DNA of 64,000 nt from assembly GCF_900120165.1 (NCBI RefSeq), contig NZ_LT635475.1, forward strand, positions 868,001-932,000, given 5' to 3'. Of the stretch, positions 1,052 to 54,942 are shown piece after piece. The first letter of the stretch is position 1. Every line of letters starts with the position of its first letter. The notes below the pieces were generated by a model. That model worked only from the letters and a program-made list of their open reading frames with translations, ran no database searches and was not told the origin of the DNA. Both the position numbers and the translations under genes were made by a program. This DNA is from Ezakiella massiliensis. Lineage in GTDB: Bacteria; Bacillota; Clostridia; Tissierellales; Peptoniphilaceae.

Positions 1052-1074
1052 GGTCCACATAAAGTGGACCCTAC
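1052..1074 (-). repeat. REP-like hairpin H1 with GTAG foot
   Basis: GGTCCAC, loop ATAAA (with flanking A/T), GTGGACC, then CTAC at 1071-1074, which is GTAG on the minus strand. Member of the dispersed H1 family. The 3' flank (ACGTGCTTAAAAATATCCGT) is shared with the copy at 15.7 kb. Confidence 0.8.
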
Positions 1075-1123
1075 AACGTGCTTAAAAATATCCGTAGGAT
1101 AAATTCATTCATCCCATTTTACC

Positions 1124-1155
1124 CACAAAAAAAGAAGGCACTAATTAGCGCCTTC
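1124..1155 (-). terminator. Rho-independent terminator of the opp operon
   Basis: GAAGGC (1134-1139) pairs with GCCTTC (1150-1155). On the minus strand the stem is followed by a T run (1124-1133), just after the oppF stop. Confidence 0.85.
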
Positions 1156-1162
1156 AAAATTT

Positions 1163-2125
1163 TTATTCGTTATACAAGTGGCAGGCCACAAAGTGTTCTG
1201 GTTTTACTTCTCTCAATTGAGGAGCAACTTCCTTACAGATTGGCATGCACTTGGAGCAACGACCTGCAAACTTACATCCTGGTGGGACGTTGATTGGTGA
1301 AGGTACTTCACCTTCTAGGTGGATCCTGTTAGATTTTTTACCAACTTCTGGGTCCGGTACAGGTATTGCTGAGATTAGGGCTTGGGTGTAAGGGTGGAGG
1401 GAGTTTTCGTAGATTTCGCTTGACTTAGCAAGTTCAACTACTGATCCCAAATACATTACACAGATCCTATCTGAAATATGTTTTACCATTGACAAGTCAT
1501 GGGATATAAACATATAGGTTAGGCCCATATCTTTTTGTAATTTATTTAACAAGTTAACAACTTGTGCTTGGATACTTACGTCAAGAGCTGAGATTGGTTC
1601 GTCGCAAACGATGAACTTTGGTTCAATTGCAAGGCTTCTTGCAATACCTACACGTTGTCTTTGTCCACCTGATAATTCGTGTGGGAAACGTGCCCCGTGT
1701 TCTTTGTTTAGACCAACTGTGCCCAAAAGTTCATTGATCCTATCTGTGCGTTCTTTTTTGGATAGGTCAAAGTGGGTGTCCATACCTTCAGCGATAATAT
1801 CGCCGATGGTCATTCTTGGGTCCAAGCTTGCGTAAGGGTCTTGGAATATATATTGGGCTTTCTTTTTGAAGTCAAAGGCTTCTTTTTTACTCATTGAGTG
1901 TACGTCCTTGCCATCAAATAAAACCTTACCGTGGGTTGCTGGATACATGCCGAGGATTGTACGGCCTGCAGTTGTCTTACCGCAACCTGATTCACCTACA
2001 ACACCAAAGGTTTCGCCCTTGTAAATATTAAATGAAATATCGTCAACTGCCTTTAAAATTTGGTGCCTACCAACTTTAAAGTGTTTTGAGAGATGTTCAA
2101 CTTGTACTAGTACTTCTTTTGTCAT
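1163..2125 (-). CDS. oppF: Oligopeptide ABC transporter ATP-binding protein OppF
   Basis: This 320-residue ATPase is one of the two nucleotide-binding subunits that power peptide uptake through OppBC at the cytoplasmic face. It shows Walker A GESGCGKTTAGR near residue 43, the ABC signature LSGGQRQR near residue 152 and Walker B FIVCDEPISALD near 175. The C-terminal oligopeptide/dipeptide domain carries the cysteine cluster PPGCKFAGRCSKCMPIC, probably an iron-sulfur or zinc site as in many Opp/Dpp ATPases. The start is supported by GGAGG eight bases upstream. It is the last gene of oppABCDF, one base after oppD, and is followed by a clear terminator. Length is typical of the family. Confidence 0.95.
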   Translation of the reverse strand: MTKEVLVQVEHLSKHFKVGRHQILKAVDDISFNIYKGETFGVVGESGCGKTTAGRTILGMYPATHGKVLFDGKDVHSMSKKEAFDFKKKAQYIFQDPYASLDPRMTIGDIIAEGMDTHFDLSKKERTDRINELLGTVGLNKEHGARFPHELSGGQRQRVGIARSLAIEPKFIVCDEPISALDVSIQAQVVNLLNKLQKDMGLTYMFISHDLSMVKHISDRICVMYLGSVVELAKSSEIYENSLHPYTQALISAIPVPDPEVGKKSNRIHLEGEVPSPINVPPGCKFAGRCSKCMPICKEVAPQLREVKPEHFVACHLYNE

Positions 2126-2126
2126 A

Positions 2127-3149
2127 TTAGTATCCTCCTTCTCTCATAGCTTGCCAGTCGATTTCTCCGGCGTATTCGTGTTCTAGCCAGCACCATGAAC
2201 GGTGGGTGTCTGAGTGCACGCTTGCTGGTGGAGCCATCTTCTTGCAAATTTCCATAGCCCTTGAGCACCTTGGTGCAAATGGGCAGCCAGGAAGTGGCAA
2301 TAATAAGTCTGGTGGTGTACCGCCAAGTGCTCTTAAGTCGTCATTCTTGGTATCGTGAACCTTAGGAATTGAGTTTAATAGGGCCCAGGTGTATGGGTGT
2401 CTAGCATTGTAGAAGATTTCATCTGTAGTACCTTCTTCAATGATGTCGCCTGCATACATAACTTGGATCCTGTCAGCAAAGTTTGCTACAACTCCCAGGT
2501 CGTGAGTTACAAGGATAACAGCTGTGTGCATTTGTTCTTTCAAATCGTGGATAAGGTCCAAGATTTGAGCTTGGATAGTAACGTCCAGAGCTGTTGTTGG
2601 TTCGTCAGCAATCAAAAGTTTTGGTGAGCATGATAGCGCCATGGCGATCATAACTCTTTGTCTCATCCCGCCTGATAATTCGTGTGGGTATGATTTTAAT
2701 CTCTTGGCTGCCTCAGGAATTTGAACCAATTCTAATAGTCTAATGGCCTCACGCTTGGCATCGTCACCCTTTAATCCCCTGTGGATTTTGAGAGCTTCTG
2801 TAACTTGCATGCCAATTGTAAGGGTTGGGTTTAGAGATGTCATAGGGTCTTGGAAGATCATAGCAATGTCTCCACCCCTTAAATCAGTAAGTCTCTTGCC
2901 CTTCATAGACATAACATCTTCACCTTCAAAGGTGATGATTGAATTTTTTTTAATTTCTGAGGATTCTTCTGGCAAAAGTCTCATAAGAGCCTTGGCGGTA
3001 ACACTCTTACCGCAACCAGATTCACCTACAAAAGCCAAGGTTTCCCCCCTATTTACGTGGAAGTCCAAACCTCTAACGGCCTTAACTTCACCAGCGTAGG
3101 TGTGGAAGGATACCTGTAAATTTTTTACATCTATTAATCTATCTGCCAT
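2127..3149 (-). CDS. oppD: Oligopeptide ABC transporter ATP-binding protein OppD
   Basis: A 340-residue ABC ATPase, partner of OppF. Walker A is [12 protein letters not shown] near residue 40, the signature is [12 protein letters not shown] near 160 and Walker B is [12 protein letters not shown] near 180. The C-terminal extension has the [14 protein letters not shown] cluster found in peptide-importer ATPases. The ribosome site AAGGAGAG lies just before the ATG at 3149. The gene lies 10 bases after oppC and one base before oppF, so translation is probably coupled. Substrates would be short peptides delivered by OppA. The first ATPase of the pair is conventionally called OppD. Confidence 0.95.
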
Positions 3150-9824: not shown

Positions 9825-11309
9825 ATGCAAGATAATAAAAAAGTTAATAATCTTAATGAGTTTTTAGAGCTGATAGATAATAATCCCGTAGCACAAAATG
9901 CTTTTTTTAGAGGCGAATCTATGAATCGTCCTATTGTCGCTTCATGCTATAGAGAGAAATATTATAGAGCTAGTTGGCACGACCTAGATAATATGATAAA
10001 AGAATTTTATTTTGAAGTAGGTCATCAAGTAAATAACATTAAAGAGAAAAACTTCCTAGCATTTGCTCAACATCATGGCTTGCCCACAAATCTTATTGAC
10101 ATTACAGAAACACCCTTGACCGCCTTGTACTTTGCTTGCGAAAACTACAAAACAGACCATAATCCTTGTGTTCATGTCTTTAATAAAAATAGATTTTGGC
10201 CCATCGATAATAACTATACAAATATCGAAATTAGATCTTTATATGACGATTTTCTAGATGAGTTGAATCCAGAGAGCAATAAAAAAGATAGCTTAATAAT
10301 TCTTGACTATATAGTTAGATCATATGATTCTTTTCACGCTAAAGAATATTCAAAAATACTTGTTAATAACCTTAAACTCGCTAGATTATATTTTGACGAA
10401 GAAAAAGATAATCCATTAATTAATGGCATTGATAATTTTTTAAAGAACGTAAATAAAAGCGATTATATTGAAGTAGGCCTATCACTTAAGTCCGATATTC
10501 TTTTCTCCATTACCAGTAACGAATATAATACTTATAATAAGGATAGAAATAGAAATAGAAATAGAAACAGAAATAGAAATAGAAATAGAAATAGAAATAG
10601 AAATAGAAACAGAAATAGAAATAGAAATAAAAATAAAAATAAAAATAGAAATAGAAATAAAAATAGAAATTATAATAATATTAATAATATAAAAATCTGG
10701 AAAGAAATAATAGATGAAATTACCATAAAGCTCTTTCCATCAGAAGGATTCATGAATTTAGAAACAAAAGAGTATGATTTTGAAAAAATTCTAGCACATC
10801 ATGTATATAAATTAATATTCTTATCAACATTTGCTTTTTGCCTAAGAAAGGCCAGAGATAACGCAACAGAAACTTTCCCCGAATTTCCCCTCATGCTTTA
10901 TAAGACAAGTGTTAATTTCGATAGAATGAAATTACAATCTGGAGTCTTTATATTACAGAATGTAATATACCCTAATTCTTGTGAAACTATTGAAAATAAG
11001 CCTATGTTTATAGCTCAACCAATAGAGCCTAATTTAACAATAGAAATTCTTAATCCCCAACAAGTATTAAAACAGTTAGAAAACATGAAAATAAACGGAG
11101 CATCCATCTTTGGTGATCCTGACAATACCGCAAAGTATATAAAAGAAAAATATAAAAGGCCTATAAAAAACAATGTAAAAACTAATAATGAAAACCCAGA
11201 TGATAATATAGACTCGAACACAAACGATGAACAACAGAAAATCAATTATTCTAGTACTCCCTGCTTAAATTCTTGTCAACATTACTGCGAGCATATGAAT
11301 CAAAATTAG
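9825..11309 (+). CDS. FRG-domain protein with internal Arg-Asn repeat
   Basis: 494 residues. The N-terminal third is an FRG domain: the naming motif FFRGES is at about 27-32 and the companion motif QHHGLPTNLIDITETPLTAL at about 84-103. The biochemical activity of FRG domains is not settled; they recur in accessory and phage-defence neighbourhoods. Residues 241-282 are a low-complexity run of Arg-Asn and Lys-Asn dipeptides encoded by an AGAAAT microsatellite, splitting the protein in two. The C-terminal half (about 290-494) has no motif I know and ends in a Cys/His cluster (CLNSCQHYCEH). AT-rich codon use and an adjacent IS relic suggest acquisition. Start supported by AGGAGGGAAG. Confidence 0.75.
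   Translation: MQDNKKVNNLNEFLELIDNNPVAQNAFFRGESMNRPIVASCYREKYYRASWHDLDNMIKEFYFEVGHQVNNIKEKNFLAFAQHHGLPTNLIDITETPLTALYFACENYKTDHNPCVHVFNKNRFWPIDNNYTNIEIRSLYDDFLDELNPESNKKDSLIILDYIVRSYDSFHAKEYSKILVNNLKLARLYFDEEKDNPLINGIDNFLKNVNKSDYIEVGLSLKSDILFSITSNEYNTYNKDRNRNRNRNRNRNRNRNRNRNRNRNRNRNKNKNKNRNRNKNRNYNNINNIKIWKEIIDEITIKLFPSEGFMNLETKEYDFEKILAHHVYKLIFLSTFAFCLRKARDNATETFPEFPLMLYKTSVNFDRMKLQSGVFILQNVIYPNSCETIENKPMFIAQPIEPNLTIEILNPQQVLKQLENMKINGASIFGDPDNTAKYIKEKYKRPIKNNVKTNNENPDDNIDSNTNDEQQKINYSSTPCLNSCQHYCEHMNQN
10545..10670 (+). repeat. Hexanucleotide microsatellite AGAAAT, about 21 units
   Basis: 126 bases of (AGAAAT) with A-to-C and G-to-A variants, in frame inside the FRG gene and encoding an (RN/KN) run. 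Gain or loss of units would keep the frame and change only linker length. Confidence 0.9.
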
Positions 11310-15657: not shown

Positions 15658-15721
15658 TTTTTCTTAATTGTTGATCGTCATATTGACCAACATTTTGGGC
15701 TTTTAGTGCGGGACTTTTCGA

Positions 15722-15743
15722 GCCACATAAAGATGGCCCCTAC
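15722..15743 (-). repeat. Degenerate H1 hairpin
   Basis: GCCA/TGGC around ATAAA, followed by CCCCTAC. The stem is imperfect. Its 3' flank, TACGTGCTGATAAATATCCG, matches the copy at 1.05 kb. Confidence 0.6.
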
Positions 15744-15811: not shown

Positions 15812-15905
15812 AAGGTGTCCACAATTTTCCTCAGACTATTTCAATCAATCAAACATCGCCTTTGGCTCGTTTTCTTGAGAAATAGGTTGCGTGAGTCACT
15901 GCATA

Positions 15906-15939
15906 CCAATCGAGCGTCGTTTGCACTCGCTCTCTTGGG
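15906..15939 (+). repeat. C element, GAGCG core
   Basis: CCAATC, GAGCG, spacer, CGCTC, TCTTGG. Near-identical to 16362-16395. Preceded by the conserved spacer GCGTGAGTCACTGCATA. Confidence 0.7.
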
Positions 15940-16209
15940 CAGGGCTGCAAGTGGATGGTACCGCGCTATATGAATATAAATCATGCTCTGGGCGTTGTTG
16001 TAATAATAGAAATTCTATTTACATATGAGAATTTTGTGTTATAATATATGTAGTTTGACTTCGTTATATGAGGCCGGAAATCGCAAACGGAGTCAGGCAA
16101 AAATAATGCAAACGAGGTGAAAAGAATGAACAAGATAAAACAAGATAGAAATAAAAATATTAAAAATATATACGACGAGAACAATGGGAACGATGAACGT
16201 AATATAAAC

Positions 16210-16243
16210 CTCGATTGCCCGGCATCGAACCTGGGCAATCGAG
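16210..16243 (+). repeat. H2 hairpin, 11-bp CTCGATTGCCC stem
   Basis: CTCGATTGCCC and GGGCAATCGAG pair perfectly around GGCATCGAACCT. Followed by ATGTCCAC, half an H1. Confidence 0.8.
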
Positions 16244-16273
16244 ATGTCCACAATTCTCCTCAGACTGTTGTAA

Positions 16274-16332
16274 CCAATCAGGAAAAATTTGGGCCACATA
16301 AAGTCGCCCCTACAGGAATTTTTCCTTCTTGG
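16274..16332 (+). repeat. C element with nested H1
   Basis: CCAATCAGGAAAAATT and AATTTTTCCTTCTTGG form the outer arms. Inside lies H1 (16291-16309, GGGC/GCCC around CACATAAAGTC) with CTAC at 16310-16313. Confidence 0.75.
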
Positions 16333-16361
16333 ACAACAGGTTGCGTGAGTCACTGCATACA

Positions 16362-16395
16362 CCAATCGAGCGTCGTTTGCACTCGCTCTCTTGGG
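16362..16395 (+). repeat. C element, GAGCG core, second copy
   Basis: Same sequence as 15906-15939, again preceded by GCGTGAGTCACTGCATA and followed by GGGCAGGGCTGCAAGTGGA. Confidence 0.7.
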
Positions 16396-16608
16396 CAGGG
16401 CTGCAAGTGGACGGTACCGCCGATATCTTAGGCGAGAGAAATCAAAAGGATAGATATAAAAATAACTAAAAGAAGGAAAAACAAAATGAAAATTAAAAAT
16501 CAAAATGAATATCAAATGGAAAATCAAATCGAAAATAAAATTGCAAACGATCGCACGGGGGAATGTGAAAATAAATTCGAAAATATAAATGGCGAATGTA
16601 ATTTAAAC

Positions 16609-16662
16609 CTCGATTGCCCGGCATCGAGCCTGGGCAATCGAGATGTCCACAATAAAGTGGAC
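16609..16662 (+). repeat. H2 plus H1 pair in the sigma-factor leader
   Basis: H2 arms CTCGATTGCCC (16609-16619) and GGGCAATCGAG (16632-16642), then H1 GTCCAC-AATAAA-GTGGAC (16645-16662). The tail here is GGTACC rather than CTAC. Confidence 0.8.
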
Positions 16663-16734
16663 GGTACCGCCGACACCTTGAGCGAGAGAAATCACAAGGA
16701 TAGATATAAAAATAACAAAAGGACAGGTGAAAAT

Positions 16735-17298
16735 ATGAAAAAAATTGAAAAAATTATTGGGGATTATAGGCCGCTGATCTTGGCGTCGATATCCAGGTAT
16801 TGCAATTTGCCGGGATTTTTTGACGACCTATACCAAGACGGGGTTGTCGAGGTGATTGAGGCAATGAAAGAATACGACCCTGCCAAGGGGACGGTTGGAG
16901 GATATTTAAAGACCAGGCTAAAACTCTTTTATATAAACAAATACAAACGCCTAATCAGACGTGAGACAGACGACATAGATGAAATCAGAGCAAAAGACCA
17001 ACCATCGGTCATGGCAATCGCCGATCACGAAAACAAAATGTTGGTCGCCAGACTCCTCTCAATATTAGACCCAGACGAAAGAACCGTAATTGAACTAACA
17101 TTTTTAATGGATATGCGAGCAAGCGAAGTATCCAAAATAATGGGCATCAGTAAAAGGAAGGTGTATTATTTGAAGGAAACAGGAATGAGGAAGTTGCAAA
17201 AGATGTCTACACGGGAAAATTTGTCCATGAGGGATGTGGTGAATGACGAATACATGTACAAAGGTGGGGGTAAGAAAACGTATAAGAATATGGAATAA
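16735..17298 (+). CDS. Sigma-70 family RNA polymerase sigma factor
   Basis: 187 residues from ATG 16735 (MKKIEKIIGDYRPLILASIS), which has AGGACAGGTGA before it. Region 2 is at about 10-75 (FFDDLYQDGVVEVIEAMKEY, then GTVGGYLKTRLKLFYINKYK) and region 4 at about 110-165 (LDPDERTVIELTFLMDMRAS, EVSKIMGISKRKVYYLKETG). It would direct RNA polymerase to an alternative promoter set; no anti-sigma gene is adjacent. An open frame continues 83 codons upstream to 16486, but it is made of the duplicated repeat leader, so I take the internal start. Terminator directly behind the gene. Confidence 0.82.
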   Translation: MKKIEKIIGDYRPLILASISRYCNLPGFFDDLYQDGVVEVIEAMKEYDPAKGTVGGYLKTRLKLFYINKYKRLIRRETDDIDEIRAKDQPSVMAIADHENKMLVARLLSILDPDERTVIELTFLMDMRASEVSKIMGISKRKVYYLKETGMRKLQKMSTRENLSMRDVVNDEYMYKGGGKKTYKNME

Positions 17299-22525: not shown

Positions 22526-22925
22526 CAATGGCATTCATATTATGTATCGCTCTGCGGTTGTAGAGTCCGATTTATTTCGGACATACCGGAGCCGATTACG
22601 GGTTCATCCCGTGTGAGGTTTCGGCGTTGTATGGCAGACGGTTTGTTGTGTAACAATGTTTGTAACAATGGTATTCAGATTGTAGATCGCCCTGCGGTTG
22701 TAGAGTCCGATTTATTTCGGACATACCGAGGCCGATTACGGGTTCATCCCGTATGAGGTTTCGGCGTTTTATGGCAGACGGTTTGTTGTGTAACAATGTT
22801 TGTAACAATGGTATTCAGATTGTAGATCGCCCTGCGGTTGTAGAGTCCGATTTATTTCGGACATACCGAGGCCGATTCCCATTTATGGGATGAGGTTTCG
22901 GCGTTGTATGGCAGGTGGTATTTAA
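22526..22925 (+). repeat. Tandem array of 140-bp units, each with GTAG-H1 and an H2-type hairpin
   Basis: Three units with H1 (GTCCGA-TTTATT-TCGGAC) at 22565-22582, 22705-22722 and 22845-22862, exactly 140 bases apart. GTAG stands at 22560, 22700 and 22840. Behind each H1 is a second hairpin: ACGGG-TTCAT-CCCGT in units 1 and 2, CCCAT-TT-ATGGG in unit 3, both enclosed by GCCGA/TCGGC. The region 22280-22525 before it has no gene and no feature I can name. Confidence 0.9.
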
Positions 22926-22960: not shown

Positions 22961-23019
22961 TTCGACCGCGGGACATCGAGTCCACGCGGCCGAAATGTCC
23001 ACGATAAAGTGGACGCTAC
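22961..23019 (-). repeat. H2 plus H1 pair
   Basis: H2: TTCG, CCGCG, GAC, loop ATCGA, GTC, CGCGG, CGAA (22961-22994). H1: GTCCAC-GATAAA-GTGGAC (22997-23014), then CTAC 23016-23019. Confidence 0.8.
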
Positions 23020-23092: not shown

Positions 23093-23215
23093 AACGGGGG
23101 CATCGAACCCCCGTTCCAGGGTGTCCGAAATAAATCGGACGCTACCTACGTTCTAATCGACACACATTAGGCGAAATATATTCAGCCGTTATAAATTTTC
23201 GTAGGATATATTCGG
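23093..23215 (-). repeat. H2 plus H1 pair with long 3' flank, left of the RAYT gene
   Basis: AACGGGGG-CATCGAA-CCCCCGTT (23093-23115), H1 GTCCGA-AATAAA-TCGGAC (23123-23140), CTAC 23142. The flank running to about 23215 recurs right of the RAYT gene (24112-24270). Confidence 0.85.
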
Positions 23216-23268: not shown

Positions 23269-23335
23269 GTAGAGTCCGATTTATTTCGGACATACCGGAG
23301 CCGATTACGGGTTCATCCCGTATGAGATTTCGGGG
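23269..23335 (+). repeat. GTAG-H1 plus H2-type hairpin immediately before the RAYT gene
   Basis: GTAG 23269-23272, H1 GTCCGA-TTTATT-TCGGAC 23274-23291, then ACGGG-TTCAT-CCCGT inside a GCCGA-type frame. Fourth, separated copy of the 140-bp unit. Confidence 0.85.
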
Positions 23336-23402: not shown

Positions 23403-24083
23403 ATGTTTATTAGAAAAGATAGGCGACTTGATTATTTCAATTATAATGCGTTGGGCCCATATTTTATTACAATTTGTACATATAATCGGCAAAAATTGCT
23501 TGGTAAGATTCAAGATAATAAATTTATTTATTATTCCGAGGATTTAAAAATTTTGTTTGAAAATACATACAAGACCATTGAAAATGAATTTAATGGCATA
23601 CGTTTTAATGTTCATTGTACCATGCCCGACCATGTGCATTTTATCGTTTTGAATGAAACGAGCGGCAAAATCGATTTAGGCGAGATCATCAAGCGTTTTA
23701 AGATTTTGATTTTAAAGGGTTACCAAGATTTGGTTTACAAGGGCATGGTCCAAAAATACACAGGCCATTTGTGGCAAAAGAATTTTTACGACCATATAAT
23801 AAGAAACGAGAGAGAATTTGACGATTGTTACGAATATATCGTCAACAATCCCATGGCCGCATCATTTAAGGTTTTATTAGCCAAATGGAATAGAGAATCC
23901 GAAGAACAAAAACGTCGTTTAAAGGCAAGGCAAGAAGCCGAAGACGCAGCAGACATTAAGTTAGCAATGAAAAGATTGAAGGGATTGAAGAGTGAAGATT
24001 TGATTTCACAAGAAGAGTTTGAAAAGATGCACGGTATAAAATTCGATGAGATTGAGCCGTTAGATGATGACGAATTTGAATAA
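23403..24083 (+). CDS. REP-associated tyrosine transposase (RAYT, Y1_Tnp family)
   Basis: 226 residues. The single-strand DNA transposase fold of the IS200/RAYT family is shown by the strand YFITICTYNRQKLLG (about 20-34), the HUH pair in TMPDHVHFIVLN (about 73-84) and the catalytic-tyrosine helix region FYDHIIRNEREFDDCYEYIV (about 123-142) followed by NNP, which is the RAYT-specific pattern rather than classical TnpA. A charged helical tail (residues 160-226) is extra. RAYTs cut and join single-stranded REP hairpins next to a GTAG-type tetranucleotide. Both flanks here carry such hairpins, and the gene has AAAGGAGGCGGACA before its ATG. No IS ends enclose it, so it is likely domesticated or mobilises REPs in trans. 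Confidence 0.9.
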   Translation: MFIRKDRRLDYFNYNALGPYFITICTYNRQKLLGKIQDNKFIYYSEDLKILFENTYKTIENEFNGIRFNVHCTMPDHVHFIVLNETSGKIDLGEIIKRFKILILKGYQDLVYKGMVQKYTGHLWQKNFYDHIIRNEREFDDCYEYIVNNPMAASFKVLLAKWNRESEEQKRRLKARQEAEDAADIKLAMKRLKGLKSEDLISQEEFEKMHGIKFDEIEPLDDDEFE

Positions 24084-24111: not shown

Positions 24112-24270
24112 TGATCCGCATAAATTCTGAAACGGGGGCATCGAACCCCCGTTCCAGGGTGTCCAAAATAAATTGGACGCTACCTACGTTCTAATCGACA
24201 CACATTAGGTGAAATATATTCAGCCATTATAGAATTCATATTGCACAAAATTTTATAAAATATATCCGTT
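24112..24270 (-). repeat. H2 plus H1 pair with long 3' flank, right of the RAYT gene
   Basis: H2 AACGGGGG/CCCCCGTT (24131-24153), H1 GTCCAA-AATAAA-TTGGAC (24161-24178), CTAC 24180-24183. Compared with the left copy the H1 stem has changed G-C to A-T on both arms. Confidence 0.9.
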
Positions 24271-24306: not shown

Positions 24307-24375
24307 GTAGAGTCCGTGGTGTGTAATTGGTTTTATCCGAAATAAATCGGACGCTACAAATAACCAATTACACAC
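24307..24375. repeat. 14-bp inverted repeat enclosing an H1 hairpin
   Basis: GTGTGTAATTGGTT (24319-24332) and AACCAATTACACAC (24362-24375) are exact inverses. Between them is TCCGA-AATAAA-TCGGA with CTAC at 24354-24357. A broken GTAG-H1 start (GTAGAGTCCG) precedes it at 24307. Confidence 0.85.
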
Positions 24376-28579: not shown

Positions 28580-28630
28580 AATAACTCCAATCAAAAACAT
28601 TTGCACCAAAAGATGCAGATTTATATTTAC

Positions 28631-28660
28631 ATTATAACATAAGGGGCGAGCAATGGGCAA
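28631..28660 (-). promoter_or_regulatory. Promoter of the helicase gene
   Basis: TTGCCC (28655-28660), 18-base spacer, TATAAT (28631-28636) on the minus strand, about 50 bases before ATG 28579. Confidence 0.65.
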
Positions 28661-28795: not shown

Positions 28796-28925
28796 AATTT
28801 GCGAGAGAATTTCGATGAGATTCGAAGTGAAATAAACTAAAAAATATGGCCGGAATAAACCGGCCGCTACAACGCTTCGCGTATTTTTTAGTTTTTCACA
28901 AGAATGTCGCAATTTTAACCGCAAA
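28796..28925 (-). repeat. Element B copy 2, with H1 as its core
   Basis: Ends AATTTGCGAG and CCGCAAATT are inverted. Inner pairs TTCG/CGCAA, GTGAAA/TTTCAC and CTAAAAAAT/ATTTTTTAG lead to H1 GGCCGG-AATAAA-CCGGCC (28848-28865) with CTAC at 28867. The other B copies have a GTAC-type core instead. It overlaps the last codons of the sirtuin gene. Confidence 0.85.
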
Positions 28926-32371: not shown

Positions 32372-32429
32372 AAAATATACATATAAAATATATTGAAGCG
32401 AATTTTTTCCTCTGGGGCAGGACTCTTCT

Positions 32430-32451
32430 GGCTACATAAAGTAGCCCCTAC
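32430..32451 (-). repeat. H1 hairpin, GGCTAC stem
   Basis: GGCTAC-ATAAA-GTAGCC (32430-32446), CTAC 32448-32451. A further stem variant with perfect pairing. Confidence 0.85.
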
Positions 32452-32511: not shown

Positions 32512-32575
32512 GTAGAGTCCGATTTATTTCGGACATACGCGGGCCCGATCCCCATTTATGGGGTGAGGGTTTGCG
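32512..32575 (+). repeat. GTAG-H1 plus H2-type hairpin
   Basis: GTAG 32512-32515, H1 GTCCGA-TTTATT-TCGGAC (32517-32534), then CCCCAT-TT-ATGGGG. The second stem differs from the ACGGG/CCCGT version yet pairs fully. Confidence 0.85.
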
Positions 32576-32719: not shown

Positions 32720-32782
32720 CTAGGGCTTCGAAAATTGATGAGTGTCCTGTTCCCCGAAAATTGGACACAAGAGGAGGAGAAC

Positions 32783-33337
32783 ATGGACTACACTAAAGAC
32801 TACAAAAAGAAGAAAGTAGAAGAATATCTAAACTCAAAACTATCACTTAGAAAATTCACAAAGATAAACAACATCCCCAAAACAACCCTTCAAGGCTGGA
32901 TCCAAACACACAACGAATACGGACCAGATGCCTTTATGGACTCAAGCAAAAGAAACACCTTAACTTTACAAGAAAGACATAATCTAGTAGAATTGTACCT
33001 AAGGAAGGGAGATGCCCTAACAAAGTTTGCTAAGAGCCATGGCATACCAGCCATGACATTTTCAAGCTGGGTATACAAATACTACCAAAGGCTCCTTCCT
33101 GAGTATATACGAAGGGAAGGCCAAGAATTGAGTAAAGATAAAAACCTTAAGAAAAGCAAATATTCAAACATAGATGACAAGAACGAATTCATAAAAAAAT
33201 TAGAAGAAAAAGATGAGAAGCTACTAAGACTTGAAATAGAAAACGCATATTTAAAAGAGTTGAGGAGGATTCGACTTCAAGAAAAAACGAAGAAAAAACA
33301 AGGATTGCCGAAGACCTCCGAAGACAATACCCACTAA
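32783..33337 (+). CDS. IS3-family transposase OrfA
   Basis: 184 residues from ATG 32783 (MDYTKDYKKKKVEEYLNSKL), preceded by AGGAGGAGAAC. Two helix-turn-helix segments (about 15-40, LSLRKFTKINNIPKTTLQGW, and 65-95, DALTKFAKSHGIPAMTFSSW) recognise the element ends; the C-terminal part from about 120 is a heptad-rich coiled coil for multimerisation. The reading frame upstream of this ATG belongs to the IS left end and host repeat, so it is not used. The A-rich tract near 33281-33298 may allow frameshifting into orfB. Confidence 0.85.
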   Translation: MDYTKDYKKKKVEEYLNSKLSLRKFTKINNIPKTTLQGWIQTHNEYGPDAFMDSSKRNTLTLQERHNLVELYLRKGDALTKFAKSHGIPAMTFSSWVYKYYQRLLPEYIRREGQELSKDKNLKKSKYSNIDDKNEFIKKLEEKDEKLLRLEIENAYLKELRRIRLQEKTKKKQGLPKTSEDNTH

Positions 33338-33396
33338 AGACAATTCTTGAAGTAATAGGACTAGCTAGATCCACCTTCTACCACAATCTAGACAGA

Positions 33397-34167
33397 ATGA
33401 GAGAGCCTGACAAAGACTCAGAACTAAAACTTAAAATGCTAGAAATAAGAGAAGCTCATCCAAACTATGGACTAAGAAGAATACACGCAGTATTAAAGAT
33501 GGATGAAGAAATAAACATAAAAAAAGTCCATAGACTATACAAAGAACTGGGCATGCAAATAAAAACCAAGAAAACCAGAAAACCATACACATTCCTAGGA
33601 AGCCTAAAAGACATACCAAACAGAATAAAAAGAAGATTTGACTCCACAATGCCAAATCTAAAACTCTTTACAGACACAACCTATGTAAAAATATATAAAG
33701 ACAAAGAAAACTATACATGGGCCTACCTAAACGCCTTCATAGATGGATTTGACAGGAAAATAATCTCATACAACGTAGTAGACAACATGAGAAAAGAACC
33801 CTTCATAGATCTAGCAAAAGAAACCATAAGAAAAACCAATAATGCAGAATACAGAAGAACATTTCATTCAGACCAAGGCATCATATACTTCAGTAAAGAA
33901 TACCAAGACCTACTAAAAGAAAATAATATCTACCAAAGCATGTCAAGAAAAGGCAACTGCCTAGACAACTCAGTCATAGAAAGCTTCTGGTCAGTAATTA
34001 AAAGAGAAAAACTAAGTAAAACAAAATTCAAAAGCCTAGAGCAGTTACAAAAGGCAGTAGATGAATTTGTGGAATACTACAACAACACAAGAATAAAAGA
34101 AAAGAACAACTACCTAAGCCCCAATGAAAAAAGGGCCAAGTATTACGAAGAAAAAGAAAGAGCATAA
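33397..34167 (+). CDS. IS3-family transposase OrfB (DDE integrase)
   Basis: 256 residues from the first ATG, but the -1 frame is open well upstream into the orfA end (RIAEDLRRQYPLKTILEVIG), so the active protein is probably an OrfAB frameshift fusion. The rve-type catalytic core shows the first D in FTDTTYV (about 88-94), the second in FHSDQG (about 151-156) and the E in DNSVIESFWSVIKRE (about 188-202). The HTH_21 region NYGLRRIHAVLKMDEEINIK is at about 22-41. It appears intact. Confidence 0.9.
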   Translation: MREPDKDSELKLKMLEIREAHPNYGLRRIHAVLKMDEEINIKKVHRLYKELGMQIKTKKTRKPYTFLGSLKDIPNRIKRRFDSTMPNLKLFTDTTYVKIYKDKENYTWAYLNAFIDGFDRKIISYNVVDNMRKEPFIDLAKETIRKTNNAEYRRTFHSDQGIIYFSKEYQDLLKENNIYQSMSRKGNCLDNSVIESFWSVIKREKLSKTKFKSLEQLQKAVDEFVEYYNNTRIKEKNNYLSPNEKRAKYYEEKERA

Positions 34168-34189
34168 AGAAGCTTTCTTGCCAAATTTT

Positions 34190-34264
34190 AAATTTTTGAA
34201 TAAGCTTTATGTCAAGGGCTATGCAAGTTGCTTCGCAACCCTTGACAATCGCATTCAAAAATTT
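34190..34264. other. Nested hairpin in the IS 3' end
   Basis: Outer arms AAATTTTTGAAT (34190-34201) and ATTCAAAAATTT (34253-34264); inner arms TGTCAAGGG (34210-34218) and CCCTTGACA (34239-34247). Both perfect. Likely stops transcription across the IS border. Confidence 0.7.
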
Positions 34265-34331
34265 AGTTAGCAAGTAGAAAGCATTCTTTTAGATGAACAA
34301 ATTATTTGTCCAACTTTTTGGGAACACCCCA

Positions 34332-34375
34332 GTCCGAAATAAATCGGACGCTACCTACGTGCTGAAAAGCACACA
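34332..34375 (-). repeat. H1 hairpin with following small hairpin
   Basis: GTCCGA-AATAAA-TCGGAC (34332-34349), CTAC 34351-34354, then GTGCT-GAAA-AGCAC. The flank resembles those beside the RAYT gene. Confidence 0.8.
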
Positions 34376-47733: not shown

Positions 47734-47795
47734 CCAATCAAACAAAATTTTTTGTCCGAAATAAATCGGACTCTACAGAAATTTTGTTTTCTTGG
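47734..47795 (+). repeat. C element with nested H1
   Basis: CCAATCAAACAAAATTT and AAATTTTGTTTTCTTGG are the outer arms; inside are H1 GTCCGA-AATAAA-TCGGAC (47754-47771) and CTAC (47773-47776). Confidence 0.8.
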
Positions 47796-47822: not shown

Positions 47823-47854
47823 CCAATCGGTCAATTTCTTGGCGACCATAAAGG
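47823..47854 (+). repeat. C element / H1, left half, interrupted by IS copy 1
   Basis: CCAATCGGTCAATTTCTT then GGCGACC-ATAAAGG. The right half is at 49536-49569. Outer arms GGTCAATTTC and GAAATTGACC are exact inverses, proving that the two halves were once joined. Confidence 0.85.
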
Positions 47855-47903
47855 TGAACTGCCCCTTGTCAAGTAGACACAATAATTAATTAAAAACATA
47901 CAT

Positions 47904-48626
47904 TTAAACTGCATACTCTCTGTACTCCAACGGAGCCATGCAGTTTAATCTTTTCTGAAACCTCTCGTTGTTGTAAAACTCAATGTAATTCATAATTCTT
48001 TCTTTTAATTCTTCTAAAGAATTAAACTCTTTACCATAAAACATCTCTGTCTTTAATATACCAAAAAATCCTTCCATTGGACCGTTATATATACATTTAC
48101 CTACCCTGGACATACTATGCTTAATGCCTTGACCTTCTACTTTTCTTTTAAATGCTCTTGAAGTATATTGACAACCACGGTCACTATGGAATATTGGTTT
48201 TGCATTAGGGTATTTGTCTATGGCCTTGTCAAACATTTTAAATACAATCTCTGCATTGCTTCTGTAAGACAACTCATATTCTACGATGCTGTTGTCGTAT
48301 AGATCAAGTATTGCACTTAGGTAGAGTTTTTTGTTTTCTCCAGCTATACTAAATTCTGTTATGTCTGTAAGCCACTTCTCATTTGGTTTTTCTGCTTTGA
48401 ATTTTCTTTTAAGGATGTTTTCTCTTGTATAGAATGGTTCTATTGTTTTTCTAACTACTTTCTTTCTTCTAATTCTTGCTTGTATTCCTAGGAGCTTCAT
48501 TAGTCTGTAGATGTATTGTTCTGAGTAGTTTTTGTGGTTTAGTTTGTTTATGAACATGGTCATCCTTCTGTATCCTAGGATTCCGTCATATGTTCTATGG
48601 TATTCAAATATTAAGCTACTTAGCAA
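47904..48626 (-). CDS. IS3-family transposase OrfB, copy 1
   Basis: 240 residues from the first ATG; the -1 frame stays open upstream (GYQVKTICEILKISRSSYYK), so the working product is probably an OrfAB fusion. Catalytic residues are D in WLTDITEFSI (about 84), D in IFHSDRGCQYTS (about 144) and E in GPMEGFFGILKTEM (about 181). HTH_21 region DGILGYRRMTMFINKLNHKN is at about 14-33. It differs from copy 2 in one residue noted near the end (REYAV against REHAV). It appears intact. Confidence 0.92.
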   Translation of the reverse strand: MLSSLIFEYHRTYDGILGYRRMTMFINKLNHKNYSEQYIYRLMKLLGIQARIRRKKVVRKTIEPFYTRENILKRKFKAEKPNEKWLTDITEFSIAGENKKLYLSAILDLYDNSIVEYELSYRSNAEIVFKMFDKAIDKYPNAKPIFHSDRGCQYTSRAFKRKVEGQGIKHSMSRVGKCIYNGPMEGFFGILKTEMFYGKEFNSLEELKERIMNYIEFYNNERFQKRLNCMAPLEYREYAV

Positions 48627-48715
48627 TTCATCTCGTTTTTCTTTTTCAGGTTTTTCTCTTTTTTTGTATTTGTAGTAGCTGCTTCTTGAGATTTTTAGTA
48701 TTTCACAGATGGTTT

Positions 48716-49474
48716 TTACTTGGTATCCTTTTTCTTTGAAGATGTCGACCGTAAGGTACTGAGCTTCTTGACGTAGTTTTGAGTGTATAGCTGTTTTTCC
48801 ATAGCTTCTTTTTTTTTAAGAACTTCAAGCTCTAATTCAAGTCTTTTTCTAATTTCTTTTTCTTTTTCAAGTTCAAGTTTTAATTTCTCTGTGTCTGTAA
48901 GCTTGCTTTCATCTATTTCAGCTTTGAATTTAGGCCCTCTTTTTTTGTACTTTAAGCCTTCTTCTCCTTCTTTTAAGAAGCTTTGTGTCCATTTGTATAC
49001 AAGTGCATAGTTTAGATTGAATTTTTCTGCTGCCTTATTGTAATTATTGTTGTTGTCTAGGATCCATTTTACTATTTCAATTCTTTCTTCATATGTGGTT
49101 TCTTTGGCTTTCATGGAATCTTCCTCTCTTTTTTGTTTTGTATCTTTGAGTGTAATTCCATTATACCACATGTTAACCCATTTACCTGCAGTTGAGTGTG
49201 ATATATTATATTTATGTCCAAGTTGCTGGTAGGAGTAGTTTCCTGTAAGGTAGTCTTGAACTACCTTCATTTTAAATTCTTTTGAAAAACTTCCGTTTGA
49301 AGTTCTTGACTTTAGAGCCTCTTCTCCTTTTTCCTTGTACTTTACATACCATGAGGCGACAGTTGTATCTCCTGCATTTATTTCTTTGGCTATTTCTATG
49401 AATGATTTGTTTCCTTTTTCGTATTCTCTACATGCTTGTATTTTTGTTTCTAAGTCAAATTTAATTTTCCCCAT
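48716..49474 (-). CDS. IS3-family transposase OrfA, copy 1
   Basis: 252 residues, longer than the usual OrfA because it holds three successive helix-turn-helix units: KIQACREYEKGNKSFIEIAK (about 11-30), MKVVQDYLTGNYSYQQLGHK (about 69-88) and RIEIVKWILDNNNNYNKAAE (about 131-150). A lysine/glutamate-rich coiled coil (about 190-235) follows. A run of nine A before G in the sequence for VLKKKEAMEK is the likely -1 frameshift site. Protein identical to copy 2. Confidence 0.92.
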   Translation of the reverse strand: MGKIKFDLETKIQACREYEKGNKSFIEIAKEINAGDTTVASWYVKYKEKGEEALKSRTSNGSFSKEFKMKVVQDYLTGNYSYQQLGHKYNISHSTAGKWVNMWYNGITLKDTKQKREEDSMKAKETTYEERIEIVKWILDNNNNYNKAAEKFNLNYALVYKWTQSFLKEGEEGLKYKKRGPKFKAEIDESKLTDTEKLKLELEKEKEIRKRLELELEVLKKKEAMEKQLYTQNYVKKLSTLRSTSSKKKDTK

Positions 49475-49535
49475 TTTTTCTCCTTTTTCTGGGTTTTTAA
49501 TTAATTAGACTGTCTACTTTGCATGTATCATACCA

Positions 49536-49569
49536 AAAGGATCGCCGCTACAGGAAATTGACCTCTTGG
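49536..49569 (+). repeat. C element / H1, right half after IS copy 1
   Basis: AAAGG, ATCGCC, GCTAC, AGGAAATTGACCTCTTGG. Completes the element begun at 47823. Confidence 0.85.
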
Positions 49570-50380: not shown

Positions 50381-50427
50381 AAAAGCGGGGACATCGAATC
50401 CCCGCTTTTGAATGGCGACCATAAAGG
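50381..50427 (+). repeat. H2 hairpin and left half of H1, interrupted by IS copy 2
   Basis: AAAAGCGGGG-ACATCGAAT-CCCCGCTTTT (50381-50409), then GGCGACC-ATAAAGG up to the IS. The right half is at 52109-52124. Confidence 0.85.
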
Positions 50428-50488
50428 TGGTATGATACATGCAAAGTAGACAGTCTAATTAATTAAAAACCCATAAAAAGGAGAAAAA

Positions 50489-51247
50489 ATGGGGAAAATT
50501 AAATTTGACTTAGAAACAAAAATACAAGCATGTAGAGAATACGAAAAAGGAAACAAATCATTCATAGAAATAGCCAAAGAAATAAATGCAGGAGATACAA
50601 CTGTCGCCTCATGGTATGTAAAGTACAAGGAAAAAGGAGAAGAGGCTCTAAAGTCAAGAACTTCAAACGGAAGTTTTTCAAAAGAATTTAAAATGAAGGT
50701 AGTTCAAGACTACCTTACTGGAAACTACTCCTACCAGCAACTTGGACATAAATATAATATATCACACTCAACTGCAGGTAAATGGGTTAACATGTGGTAT
50801 AATGGAATTACACTCAAAGATACAAAACAAAAAAGAGAGGAAGATTCCATGAAAGCCAAAGAAACCACATATGAAGAAAGAATTGAAATAGTAAAATGGA
50901 TCCTAGACAACAACAATAATTACAATAAGGCAGCAGAAAAATTCAATCTAAACTATGCACTTGTATACAAATGGACACAAAGCTTCTTAAAAGAAGGAGA
51001 AGAAGGCTTAAAGTACAAAAAAAGAGGGCCTAAATTCAAAGCTGAAATAGATGAAAGCAAGCTTACAGACACAGAGAAATTAAAACTTGAACTTGAAAAA
51101 GAAAAAGAAATTAGAAAAAGACTTGAATTAGAGCTTGAAGTTCTTAAAAAAAAAGAAGCTATGGAAAAACAGCTATACACTCAAAACTACGTCAAGAAGC
51201 TCAGTACCTTACGGTCGACATCTTCAAAGAAAAAGGATACCAAGTAA
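50489..51247 (+). CDS. IS3-family transposase OrfA, copy 2
   Basis: 252 residues, identical in protein to copy 1 (three helix-turn-helix units plus a C-terminal coiled coil). AAAAGGAG precedes the ATG. The A9 tract at 51146-51154 is the probable slippage site: in the -1 frame translation continues as RSYGKTAIHSKLRQEAQYLT into orfB without a stop. Identity with copy 1 shows recent transposition. Confidence 0.92.
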   Translation: MGKIKFDLETKIQACREYEKGNKSFIEIAKEINAGDTTVASWYVKYKEKGEEALKSRTSNGSFSKEFKMKVVQDYLTGNYSYQQLGHKYNISHSTAGKWVNMWYNGITLKDTKQKREEDSMKAKETTYEERIEIVKWILDNNNNYNKAAEKFNLNYALVYKWTQSFLKEGEEGLKYKKRGPKFKAEIDESKLTDTEKLKLELEKEKEIRKRLELELEVLKKKEAMEKQLYTQNYVKKLSTLRSTSSKKKDTK

Positions 51248-51336
51248 AAACCATCTGTGAAATACTAAAAATCTCAAGAAGCAGCTACTACAAATACAAA
51301 AAAAGAGAAAAACCTGAAAAAGAAAAACGAGATGAA

Positions 51337-52059
51337 TTGCTAAGTAGCTTAATATTTGAATACCATAGAACATATGACGGAATCCTAGGATACAGAAGGA
51401 TGACCATGTTCATAAACAAACTAAACCACAAAAACTACTCAGAACAATACATCTACAGACTAATGAAGCTCCTAGGAATACAAGCAAGAATTAGAAGAAA
51501 GAAAGTAGTTAGAAAAACAATAGAACCATTCTATACAAGAGAAAACATCCTTAAAAGAAAATTCAAAGCAGAAAAACCAAATGAGAAGTGGCTTACAGAC
51601 ATAACAGAATTTAGTATAGCTGGAGAAAACAAAAAACTCTACCTAAGTGCAATACTTGATCTATACGACAACAGCATCGTAGAATATGAGTTGTCTTACA
51701 GAAGCAATGCAGAGATTGTATTTAAAATGTTTGACAAGGCCATAGACAAATACCCTAATGCAAAACCAATATTCCATAGTGACCGTGGTTGTCAATATAC
51801 TTCAAGAGCATTTAAAAGAAAAGTAGAAGGTCAAGGCATTAAGCATAGTATGTCCAGGGTAGGTAAATGTATATATAACGGTCCAATGGAAGGATTTTTT
51901 GGTATATTAAAGACAGAGATGTTTTATGGTAAAGAGTTTAATTCTTTAGAAGAATTAAAAGAAAGAATTATGAATTACATTGAGTTTTACAACAACGAGA
52001 GGTTTCAGAAAAGATTAAACTGCATGGCTCCGTTGGAGTACAGAGAGCATGCAGTTTAA
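51337..52059 (+). CDS. IS3-family transposase OrfB, copy 2
   Basis: 240 residues from the first ATG, with the DDE residues as in copy 1. Position 51337 is in -1 frame relative to orfA, and the frame is open from the slippage tract onward, so synthesis as OrfAB is expected. The penultimate codons read REHAV rather than REYAV. Both copies look functional. Confidence 0.92.
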   Translation: MLSSLIFEYHRTYDGILGYRRMTMFINKLNHKNYSEQYIYRLMKLLGIQARIRRKKVVRKTIEPFYTRENILKRKFKAEKPNEKWLTDITEFSIAGENKKLYLSAILDLYDNSIVEYELSYRSNAEIVFKMFDKAIDKYPNAKPIFHSDRGCQYTSRAFKRKVEGQGIKHSMSRVGKCIYNGPMEGFFGILKTEMFYGKEFNSLEELKERIMNYIEFYNNERFQKRLNCMAPLEYREHAV

Positions 52060-52108
52060 ATATGTGTTTTTAATTAATTGTTGTGTCTACTTGACAAGGG
52101 GCAGTTCA

Positions 52109-52124
52109 AAAGGATCGCCGCTAC
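52109..52124 (+). repeat. Right half of H1 after IS copy 2
   Basis: AAAGG (target duplication), ATCGCC, GCTAC, then ACGTTCTTATAAATT as in the H1 flank at 54.9 kb. Confidence 0.85.
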
Positions 52125-52172: not shown

Positions 52173-52240
52173 TGAAACTAAAAAATATGGCCGGAATAAA
52201 CCGGCCGCTACCAACGCTTCGCGTTATTTTTTAGTTTTTA
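52173..52240 (-). repeat. H1 inside an AACTAAAAAAT/ATTTTTTAGTT palindrome
   Basis: H1 GGCCGG-AATAAA-CCGGCC (52189-52206), CTAC 52208-52211, then ACGCTTCGCGT, the whole enclosed by AACTAAAAAAT and ATTTTTTAGTT. Same core as B copy 2. Confidence 0.85.
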
Positions 52241-52485: not shown

Positions 52486-52896
52486 TTATTTACATAGGAA
52501 GTCACACCCCTTGCACCGGGGCAACTCCGCCTCATTCTCCAACCTCACCCCATGGCTCCAGGCTCTCATTTGCCTCAAGATTGGGACGAGCTCCCTGCCT
52601 CTTTCGGTAAGATCATATTCGGTTCTGGGCGGCATTTCATCATAGACTGTTTTTGTTACTATGCCCATATTAACGAGTTCTTTTAAATTATTAACCAGTG
52701 TTGACTCGGTAACATCGCTCATGCCATCTCTGAGTTCAGAAAATCTCAAGGTCCCCAGATTTGAAAGAACGCAGATAATTCTGGCCTTCCATTTGTTGGA
52801 CAAAATCTTCATAGTGTTTGCAACCGGGCAATTGACGTCCTTATCGCTCGGTACATTCTTTAATTCTTCTTGTATGGATTTCTCCATTTTTTTCAT
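52486..52896 (-). CDS. HxlR family winged-helix regulator
   Basis: 136 residues. HxlR domain: CPVANTMKILSNKWKARIIC (about 23-42), LRFSELRDGMSDVTESTLVN (about 51-70), VTKTVYDEMPPRTEYDLTER (about 81-100). The conserved N-terminal Cys and a C-terminal cluster CKGCDFLCK may sense redox or reactive electrophiles. The regulator usually controls a divergent gene; here the divergent side is only a short AT-rich region before the surface protein gene that reads the same way. Ribosome site AAGAAGGGGGG. Target unknown. Confidence 0.88.
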   Translation of the reverse strand: MKKMEKSIQEELKNVPSDKDVNCPVANTMKILSNKWKARIICVLSNLGTLRFSELRDGMSDVTESTLVNNLKELVNMGIVTKTVYDEMPPRTEYDLTERGRELVPILRQMRAWSHGVRLENEAELPRCKGCDFLCK

Positions 52897-53055
52897 AACC
52901 CCCCTTCTTAAAAAATATATATGGTTTAATAGTTCAAAAATAAAACTATAGTCTCCTATTTAATATTATAATTCAATTATCGAAATAAATCAATAGAATT
53001 GTCATATATAGTGCTATATATTTTTAAGGGTCAGCAGATATGCATATGCATTTTA

Positions 53056-53089
53056 AAAACGAGGTGGAATTTTTAATCCGCCTCGTTTT
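53056..53089 (-). terminator. Terminator of the stalk-domain surface protein
   Basis: AAAACGAGGTGGA and TCCGCCTCGTTTT, 13-base arms with one G-T type mismatch, minus-strand T run behind. Confidence 0.85.
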
Positions 53090-53102
53090 AAATCATATTT
53101 TA

Positions 53103-54542: not shown

Positions 54543-54609
54543 TTATTAATCTCCTTGAATTTAAATTTCGCGAAAGGCAATCAACTTGCCCCACATTTTT
54601 TGCTTTTTG

Positions 54610-54639
54610 ATTATAAAGTTTTTTTATATTATTTGTCAA
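54610..54639 (-). promoter_or_regulatory. Promoter of the stalk-domain protein
   Basis: TTGACA (54634-54639), 18 bases, TATAAT (54610-54615) on the minus strand, about 70 bases before the ATG. Confidence 0.85.
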
Positions 54640-54721
54640 TAGTTTTTTGAAAAAAATATAAGATTTTTGAAGAAATTTTTTCACATTATTAGGACATAAG
54701 GACAAATCAGCATAATTTACA

Positions 54722-54749
54722 CAAAAAAGCGGCTAATCGAATCAGCCGC
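54722..54749 (-). terminator. Minus-strand terminator
   Basis: GCGGCT (54729-54734) and AGCCGC (54744-54749) with a T6 run on the minus strand; probably ends the rsmI-nurA-herA-glucan synthase message. Between it and 55162 there is no gene, only repeats. Confidence 0.75.
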
Positions 54750-54919
54750 AAGATTAAAATGTTTTATTATTTATTTGTTTTTTATTTGTATTATGTCTAA
54801 TCCAACAATGCAAATTTGCGAGGGCCGTAAGATTCTACATGAAAAACAAGAATATTTTTATACATATGATTTACGAGGGAAAATTGATGAATTTTTGACT
54901 TTTAGGGCAAGACTTTTGC

Positions 54920-54942
54920 GGGCGACATAAAGTCGCCCCTAC
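54920..54942 (-). repeat. H1 hairpin, GGGCGAC stem
   Basis: GGGCGAC-ATAAA-GTCGCCC (54920-54938), CTAC 54939-54942, followed by AACGTTCTTATAAATTATTT. Confidence 0.88.

Follow-up and report, generated by a model that had tools for sequence, protein, structure and literature searches.

Covarying stems in GTAG-type REP elements of Ezakiella massiliensis and a predicted REP-associated tyrosine transposase

Overview

A stretch of 64,000 nucleotides of the Ezakiella massiliensis genome (RefSeq assembly GCF_900120165.1, contig NZ_LT635475.1, positions 868,001 to 932,000; hereafter the window, with coordinates counted from its first letter) contains dispersed hairpins whose stems differ in sequence from copy to copy and remain largely complementary. 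The best reading of the sequence is that these repeats are GTAG-type repetitive extragenic palindromic (REP) elements of a single REPtron in Ezakiella, a known kind of system with an unusually elaborate architecture. The open reading frame (ORF) at 23403..24083 (+) nearly certainly encodes the REP-associated tyrosine transposase (RAYT) to which the repeats belong. The matched drift of the two stem arms is likely (probability about 0.7) to reflect a RAYT that reads the stem by its shape.

REP hairpins in the window and across the genome

The window contains 23 hairpins that combine an ATAAA loop with at least 5 bp of stem, compared with a mean of 4.65 and a maximum of 9 in 20 mononucleotide shuffles, and 17 of the 23 were REP-like. 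An initial annotation of the window had described about 21 dispersed copies with a fixed loop and CTAC foot in DNA that codes for nothing. All of the arm pairs that it quoted are present and a recount likewise gave 21 copies, comprising 17 GTAG-N7-TTTAT sites, one copy with a bulged stem, one with a GTAC foot, and two split by an insertion sequence (IS). Beyond these 21, two REPs (at 15817 and 16246) carry a noncoding insert in the loop. All 17 N7 sites are paired, 14 of them perfectly (six stem types) and three with one mismatch. The loop and foot are nearly invariant; the foot is not wholly fixed, since the REP at 16645..16667 (-), with stem GTCCAC/GTGGAC, bears GTAC. The same copy is the exception to the noncoding location, lying in the early part of ORF 16486-17298, while the other 20 of the 21 lie outside ORFs of at least 150 aa.

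Genome-wide copies were examined in the host genome (G000, a single contig of 1.74 Mb) and in its same-genus relative Ezakiella peruensis (G001). G000 contained 90 GTAG-N7-TTTAT sites compared with 47 for a reversed-pattern control; 62 of the 90 pair at five or more positions and the remaining 28 at four or fewer. E. peruensis contained 107 sites compared with 50 for the control, and 83 of the 84 sites within its regions picked by REP-like 5' halves were paired. Three hairpin geometries were distinguished: class B (GTAG, 7 bp, TTTAT), class A (GTAG, one base, 6 bp, TTTAT and one further base) and class C (GTAG, one base, 7 bp, TTTAT). In the sequence examined, 17 perfectly paired stem types were present in G000 and 20 in the two genomes together, including stems found once such as GGTTCAC, GGTCCAG, GGTTGAC and GGTCATC. 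A few stem types dominate, the three commonest (GTCCGA, GGTCCAC and GGGCTAC) making up 65 of 163. High copy number (62 paired N7 sites genome-wide) and a mostly intergenic position (20 of the 21 window copies) are both as expected of GTAG REPs.

Perfect hairpins numbered 136 for the foot GTAG and between 0 and 15 for each of 15 other feet, and hairpins with known arms carried GTAG in 161 of 176 cases and GTAC in 11. The loop was TTTAT, TTTATT or TTTATC in 127 of the 136 perfect GTAG hairpins; among the nine others, five had TTTA in another register, two (TTCATT and TTAAT) differed at the third position only, and two were apparently unrelated. Most of the regions behind these foot and loop counts were collected by the GTAG/TTTAT pattern, which biases them; the window was not so chosen. 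A chance origin of the window hairpins was rejected by the shuffles, the reversed-pattern control and the comparison of feet.

All 62 paired N7 REPs (G000:579345-1702842) lie within 571 kb of dnaA (1150680), leaving a 618-kb arc opposite dnaA without a paired N7 REP, made slightly narrower by a class C REP at G000 557203; the 28 unpaired background matches occur in every part of the chromosome.

A predicted RAYT accompanies the repeats

The 226-aa product of 23403..24083 contains an HUH motif (MPDHVH) and a tyrosine within WQKNFYDH. It passed the Pfam Y1_Tnp cut-off (26.9 bits, cut-off 23) and matched NF047646 (E 6.7e-19, 68.2 bits). Both motifs are invariant in the homologue alignment (A4); for WQKNFYDH, which was among the search patterns, the invariance arises partly by selection and is not evidence. 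No relatives in the PDB were found by sequence; they were found through fold alone, the best match to the AlphaFold2 model (mean predicted local distance difference test score 74) being 4er8, the structure of a RAYT in complex with a REP hairpin (E 3.2e-8; template modelling score 0.59 by target length and 0.44 by query length). The gene had a single match in G000 and is 94% identical in E. peruensis, and REPs flank it on both sides and in both orientations.

RAYT and REPs occurred together in two of the six genus genomes and neither was detected in the other four. The four genomes contained 17, 9, 27 and 25 N7 sites compared with 42, 27, 59 and 65 for the reversed control, and in one of them a lone REP-like 5' half was found, with no arm to match it. 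It is because of the identity of the RAYT and its co-occurrence with the REPs that the repeats are read as GTAG-type REPs with their own transposase, and they are probably spread by this predicted single-strand DNA transposase encoded in the window.

Fourteen RAYT homologue loci from elsewhere (one Peptoniphilus and 13 records titled as metagenome-assembled genomes, two of the loci being nearly identical) were also compared. GTAG ranked first of 256 possible feet, with 41 hairpins in 12 of the 14 loci against a median of 1 per foot. Different but fully paired stems were found near one RAYT in seven of the 14, for example GGACCGGT and GGACCAAT in locus L032. It looks as if varying paired stems are a general habit of RAYT-linked REPs. 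The initial annotation had supposed that stem sequence varies less in ordinary REP families; this did not hold up, given these seven loci and the compensatory stem changes already published in the available text of PMC2817692 and PMC3116915.

Stem letters change together

Covariation was scored on distinct hairpins picked by their 5' half, with non-pairing rows retained. The score was 0.306 in class B (17 distinct rows), 0.487 in class A (21) and 0.413 in class C (10), compared with 0.130, 0.194 and 0.240 after shuffling, and was reached by none of 500 shuffles in any class. In alignment A2, eight of 29 distinct rows were excluded as class B (GTAGGG...); all of these but one spacer variant were counted in alignment A1. 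When the partner was offset by 1 to 3 columns, the score fell in all three classes. Departures from Watson-Crick pairing comprised nine G-U cells and 31 other mismatches, the latter including some from rows whose pairing is shifted in register or needs a bulge. Related sequences can beat score shuffles without any structure, and the stricter counts given below were weaker; the score alone is therefore not proof, and more weight was placed on a blind reading and on orthologous sites.

For the blind reading, 13 REP-like 5' arms and seven controls were picked from 61 N8 sites in G000, and site 597486 was excluded as previously known. Of the resulting 12 sites, eight paired at 7/7 positions, one at 6/7, two only with a bulge, and one was not a REP; the two bulged sites were read after the fact, their automatic count being 3/7. 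The seven controls gave 0-5 pairs. Five of the 12 sites had novel 5' arms, of which GGTTGAC and GGTCATC paired perfectly, GTCTACA at 6/7 and GGCCAGC with a bulge, and GGTGGCC was unpaired. The central observation of the initial annotation, that stem letters change while pairing is kept, is upheld by the 62 of 90 paired sites, the covariation above 500 of 500 shuffles, and the blind reading.

Orthologous sites in E. peruensis

Fourteen orthologous REPs were accepted by judgement. In 13 of them the flanks run through to the REP; the fourteenth, 891019 vs C1:50275, was included without being a reciprocal best hit. Pairs whose only anchor was IS sequence or a repeat family were excluded. Nine hairpins were identical, two showed a paired change, two a single break, and one (783932/128600) a change at a pair that was already unpaired. 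The cleanest paired change was between G000:761928 (GGTCCAC/GTGGACC) and C1:151189 (GGTTCAC/GTGAACC), which differ by exactly two substitutions, both at stem pair 4, with the loop and the remaining stem unchanged and closely similar flanks. The second was at window position 22997..23019 (-), where GTCCAC/GTGGAC corresponds to GTCCAA/TTGGAC in E. peruensis. A lack of paired changes at orthologous sites would have refuted the initial annotation; with such changes at two of the 14, it is not refuted on this point. Decay is not absent, however, since two of the 14 hairpins carry an uncompensated break.

Larger changes were also found. The REP content differs between orthologous sites of the two genomes, and a different REP type stands at the same place in five orthologous intergenic sites (G000 1255311, 1307748, 1315676, 1524760 and 1685396). 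Both compensation and block change alter the arms, since the orthologs show paired changes as well as whole-tip replacements, and tip exchange is a real contributor to arm change. The initial annotation had offered two explanations, that the structure is maintained or that the arms are re-templated as a unit; the clean two-base compensation and the block-replaced tips give evidence for both.

At G000:1685347-1685420, compared with G001 C2:265309-265560, two REPs have locus-specific outer arms and E. peruensis seemingly has one arm and no REP; either the second arm arose together with the inserted sequence or it was lost by deletion.

Outer stems, loop inserts and IS elements

Many REPs stand at the apex of a second, outer stem. 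An own-flank complementarity score of at least 24 was obtained for 46 of 145 copies, compared with 36 of 870 same-class mixed-copy pairings and 6 of 145 shuffles. In most copies with a high score, 1-3 or 11-14 nt separate the end of the outer 5' arm from GTAG, a GCGAAGC-type mini-hairpin lying in between at the longer spacing, and the outer 3' arm begins 0-4 nt past the REP. The outer arm sequences vary by location, and these arms covary as those of the REP do. In the window, the composite at 24319..24375 (-) has the outer stem GTGTGTAATTGGTT/AACCAATTACACAC enclosing a REP at 24335-24357, and those at 28834..28894 (-) and 52175..52237 (-) share the outer stem AAACTAAAAAATA/TATTTTTTAGTTT around REPs with the stem GGCCGG/CCGGCC (28848-28870 and 52189-52211), the former with a GAA-loop mini-hairpin. 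The single-stranded DNA fold of 28830-28898 is exactly this junction of outer stem, mini-hairpin and REP (z -4.77).

A structured noncoding insert, beginning with TCTCCTCAGA and ending with GGCTGCAA with small variations, splits complementary REP arms at 12 places, as read by eye from the listed rows, and sometimes bears a REP of its own. Two of the window REPs are of this form. At 15817..15961 (-) the insert replaces the loop, the 3' arm is mutated (GTGGAT) and the foot is GTAC; at 16246..16417 (-) the loop of a REP with the stem GTCCAC/GTGGAC and foot GTAC is occupied by an insert about 150 nt long (z -6.37 for the DNA fold of 16206-16424), within which lies a further REP, GGGCGAC/GTGGCCC with a G-G mismatch, at 16291..16313 (-). 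In E. peruensis, C1:401050-401400 holds a two-armed REP with an insert and a further REP inside; the two-armed REP in turn lies within an insert, next to a third REP that is represented by its 5' half and whose other arm was not found. Five perfect types account for the base stem of the insert in 31 of 38 copies. Covariation of this base stem is suggestive only, 121 of 5000 shuffles of the distinct rows reaching its weak value.

IS1397 inserts in REP loops. In Ezakiella, an IS3-family element lies inside REP loops in seven two-ended cases. Its two window copies, in opposite orientation, each split a REP with the stem GGCGACC/GGaTCGCC, at 47841..49551 (-; genes 47904-48626 and 48716-49474) and 50414..52124 (-; genes 50489-51247 and 51337-52059). 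The IS-filled REP loop at G001 C1:401690-403932 has an uninterrupted counterpart in G000 (GGCTAAC/GTTAGCC). At L171:5993-6016 (G000:935999-936015) the REP loop has four extra bases, GGCTACC ATACATAAA GGTAGCC, and that of the E. peruensis ortholog is filled by an IS3-family element. A different IS3-family element at about 32744-34331 abuts the outer end of a REP, not its loop, the REP being GTCCGA/TCGGAC at 34332..34354 (-). The same abutment was seen at G000:843364, 1200578 and 1215322 and at G001 C3:31862, C4:4040 and C4:19305.

Mechanism and alternative explanations

Across the copies, the foot is near-invariant (GTAG, with a minority of GTAC), as is the loop (TTTAT or TTTATT/C), while the stem letters vary with pairing mostly kept. 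These features would be expected if RAYT bound the REP in the form of a single-stranded DNA fold, recognizing the sequence of the GTAG foot and of the loop and the duplex shape of the stem; mainly copies with paired stems would then be copied onward. A mutated stem lineage could persist if the partner base also changed, or if another copy supplied a whole new tip through recombination or template switching, and the outcome would be many stem types with one foot, one loop and one transposase. On this account the stems change in matched pairs because it is the folded shape, and not the stem sequence, that appears to be recognized.

Several observations weigh against this account. Uncompensated breaks are present in two of the 14 orthologous hairpins (890700/50670 and 840212/34548), and amplification has brought a stem with a G-G mismatch at pair 5 (GGGCGAC/GTGGCCC) to nine copies; pairing is for these reasons not absolute. 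The four of 176 known-arm hairpins with feet other than GTAG or GTAC are chance-like, too few to show that pairing is lost with mobility. In classes B, A and C respectively, 5, 78 and 4 of 500 shuffles had at least as many two-sided pair changes as the real hairpins, and 100, 405 and 442 had at least as many further pair types, so that the stricter counts are unexceptional in class A (78 and 405 of 500). The change at 22997..23019 includes a third substitution in the adjoining loop base, giving three clustered apex bases, and the tip beside REP 22840 was swapped whole, from GATTCCCATTTATGGGATGAGG to GATGCCGGGTTCATCCCGGTTGAGG in E. peruensis, within near-identical flanks; inter-copy exchange fits both as well as stepwise compensation does. 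As regards the transposase, its NF047646 score is below the cut-off (68.2 vs 80), which is a curation threshold and not a biological defining feature, and one of the RAYT-less genomes is 71% complete, counting there being by the N7 pattern only.

The strongest competitor, which we consider possible and about half as probable as shape reading, is that both arms are re-templated or swapped together, by gene conversion between dispersed copies or by replication template switching at the hairpin, with no selection on pairing. The block swap beside REP 22840, the clustered changes at REP 22997 and the different REP types at the five orthologous intergenic sites are what such exchange would produce, and template switching is described in the accessible text of PMC8794818 as creating and maintaining hairpins. 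The 761928/C1:151189 pair, differing at just two paired positions, weighs against it, as do the unrepaired breaks in two of the 14 orthologous stems and the constancy of foot and loop, which mere copying would not demand. None of the 136 perfect hairpins has its loop inverted relative to the foot, a weak argument against exchange given that most were collected via the TTTAT pattern. Inheritance of a few ancient stem types by duplication, with covariation recording history and not an ongoing process, is improbable. The dominance of a small number of types, the identity of nine of the 14 orthologous hairpins, the relatedness that remains under the shuffle control and the weaker stricter counts are in its favor; the perfectly paired stems found once and the two orthologous paired changes contradict it. 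Selection on a transcribed RNA hairpin, acting as a terminator or mRNA stabilizer, is more improbable still. The location of 20 of the 21 window copies between ORFs would suit it, but no Rfam family matches in the window, several pair changes are transversions (T:A to G:C, C:G to G:C), and conservation of the foot and loop and the tie to RAYT would be left unexplained. G-U pairs are furthermore not enriched among mispairs (nine vs 31 others), a weak argument since bulged and other-register rows are included.

A bolder reading is that hairpin tips, and not REP sequences as such, are what is exchanged and inserted. Apices would then accept folded single-stranded DNA, with REPs entering the tips of other hairpins and structured inserts entering REP loops; nesting would recur, and arms at every level would change mostly in pairs. 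This reading is tentative and on balance doubtful.

Relationship to described systems

The published comparisons below are drawn from the portions available of each source. GTAG-tagged REPs (Di Nocera et al. 2013, PMC3733652) resemble the Ezakiella elements in their terminal GTAG, stems of 5-13 bp, high copy number and several stem and loop types, and a figure legend there gives complementary nucleotide changes in IUB codes. In contrast to them, the Ezakiella REPs have a TTTAT loop, often stand at the apex of a second variable outer stem, and carry loop inserts. The RAYT/TnpA_REP and REPtron systems (PMC2817692, PMC8266576, PMC6006769) share the HUH and tyrosine motifs, the fold (predicted here, nearest 4er8), REPs in both orientations around the gene, and one gene copy found in the genome. 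The Ezakiella protein differs in its length of 226 aa and, with DHVH, WQ and YIVNNP, matches no single subclass row of PMC6006769, in which [ND]HVH belongs to subclass 2.7 and YIxNNP to subclass 2.4, and the Ezakiella system is set apart by having 17 perfectly paired stem types for a single RAYT gene. The Marinomonas REP has the loop TTTA, in which T, T and A are needed at the first, second and fourth positions and the third is free; its cleavage is moderately affected when the stem is swapped for its complement and seriously reduced when the stem contains a mismatch (PMC8266576). These biochemical results agree with the shape-reading account. The Ezakiella loops TTCATT and TTAAT alter just the position that is free in Marinomonas.

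REPINs (PMC3116915) are likewise mobile hairpin-forming units with frequent compensatory changes. They are inverted REP doublets around a spacer, whereas in Ezakiella close inverted pairs (582628+/582757- and 594870-/594954+) occur as well as many single REPs in non-REP outer stems. REPs are known IS targets (Tobes and Pareja 2006, PMC1525189), as seen here with an IS3-family element in a REP loop or against a stem; unlike in those cases, Ezakiella loops also carry the noncoding structured insert, sometimes with its own REP.

The word "firmicutes" was not found in the available main text of PMC3733652, no title among the RAYT/REPIN matches listed has Firmicutes REPs as its topic, and a literature search on Ezakiella palindromic repeats returned no paper about REPs by title, from the records available. 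"Nested insertion" was not found in the portion of the literature covered by a search on nesting, nor was a description of a nested, tip-exchanging REP architecture found in the accessible open-licence literature. The covarying REP stem is already known; the nested, tip-exchanging architecture is the part that would be new.

Other features of the window

The remaining REPs are distributed as follows. A copy with the stem GGTCCAC/GTGGACC at 1052..1074 (-) was detected by both the hairpin scan and the N7 pattern, and the bulged copy at 15720..15743 (-) has one mismatch in addition (GGGCCA-t-C/GTGGCTC). Upstream of RAYT, a tandem array of 140-bp units contributes three REPs with the stem GTCCGA/TCGGAC at 22560..22582, 22700..22722 and 22840..22862 (all +), the hairpin downstream of and adjacent to the third being the one that is block-swapped in E. 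peruensis. REPs of the same stem follow at 23123..23145 (-) and, closest upstream of RAYT, at 23269..23291 (+), and the closest downstream is an inverted copy, GTCCAA/TTGGAC, at 24161..24183 (-). Further along are GGCTAC/GTAGCC with its outermost pair broken at 32429..32451 (-), GTCCGA/TCGGAC at 32512..32534 (+) and 47754..47776 (-), and GGGCGAC/GTCGCCC at 54920..54942 (-).

A second hairpin module lies downstream of REPs (22590-22615 and similar positions), with CGAT...TGAG flanking varying stems that are paired in the copies inspected; it is likewise found after REPs of the subtype in which stem pair 5 is a G-G or A-G mismatch. A 1375-aa ORF at 24533-28660 adjoins the RAYT locus and has partial matches to anti-phage helicase models, all far under the cut-offs. 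A run of AGAAAT hexanucleotide repeats occupies 10540-10680 within ORF 9825-11309. The window had no Rfam match at gathering score, and no tRNA or tmRNA was found in it.

Implications

With 17 perfectly paired stem types, one foot, one loop and one RAYT in a single genome, E. massiliensis represents a natural mutagenesis experiment on what a RAYT reads, and as a Gram-positive system it would let the rules published from in vitro work be tested. The nested architecture, if true, would show folded DNA elements diversifying by exchange of hairpin tips.

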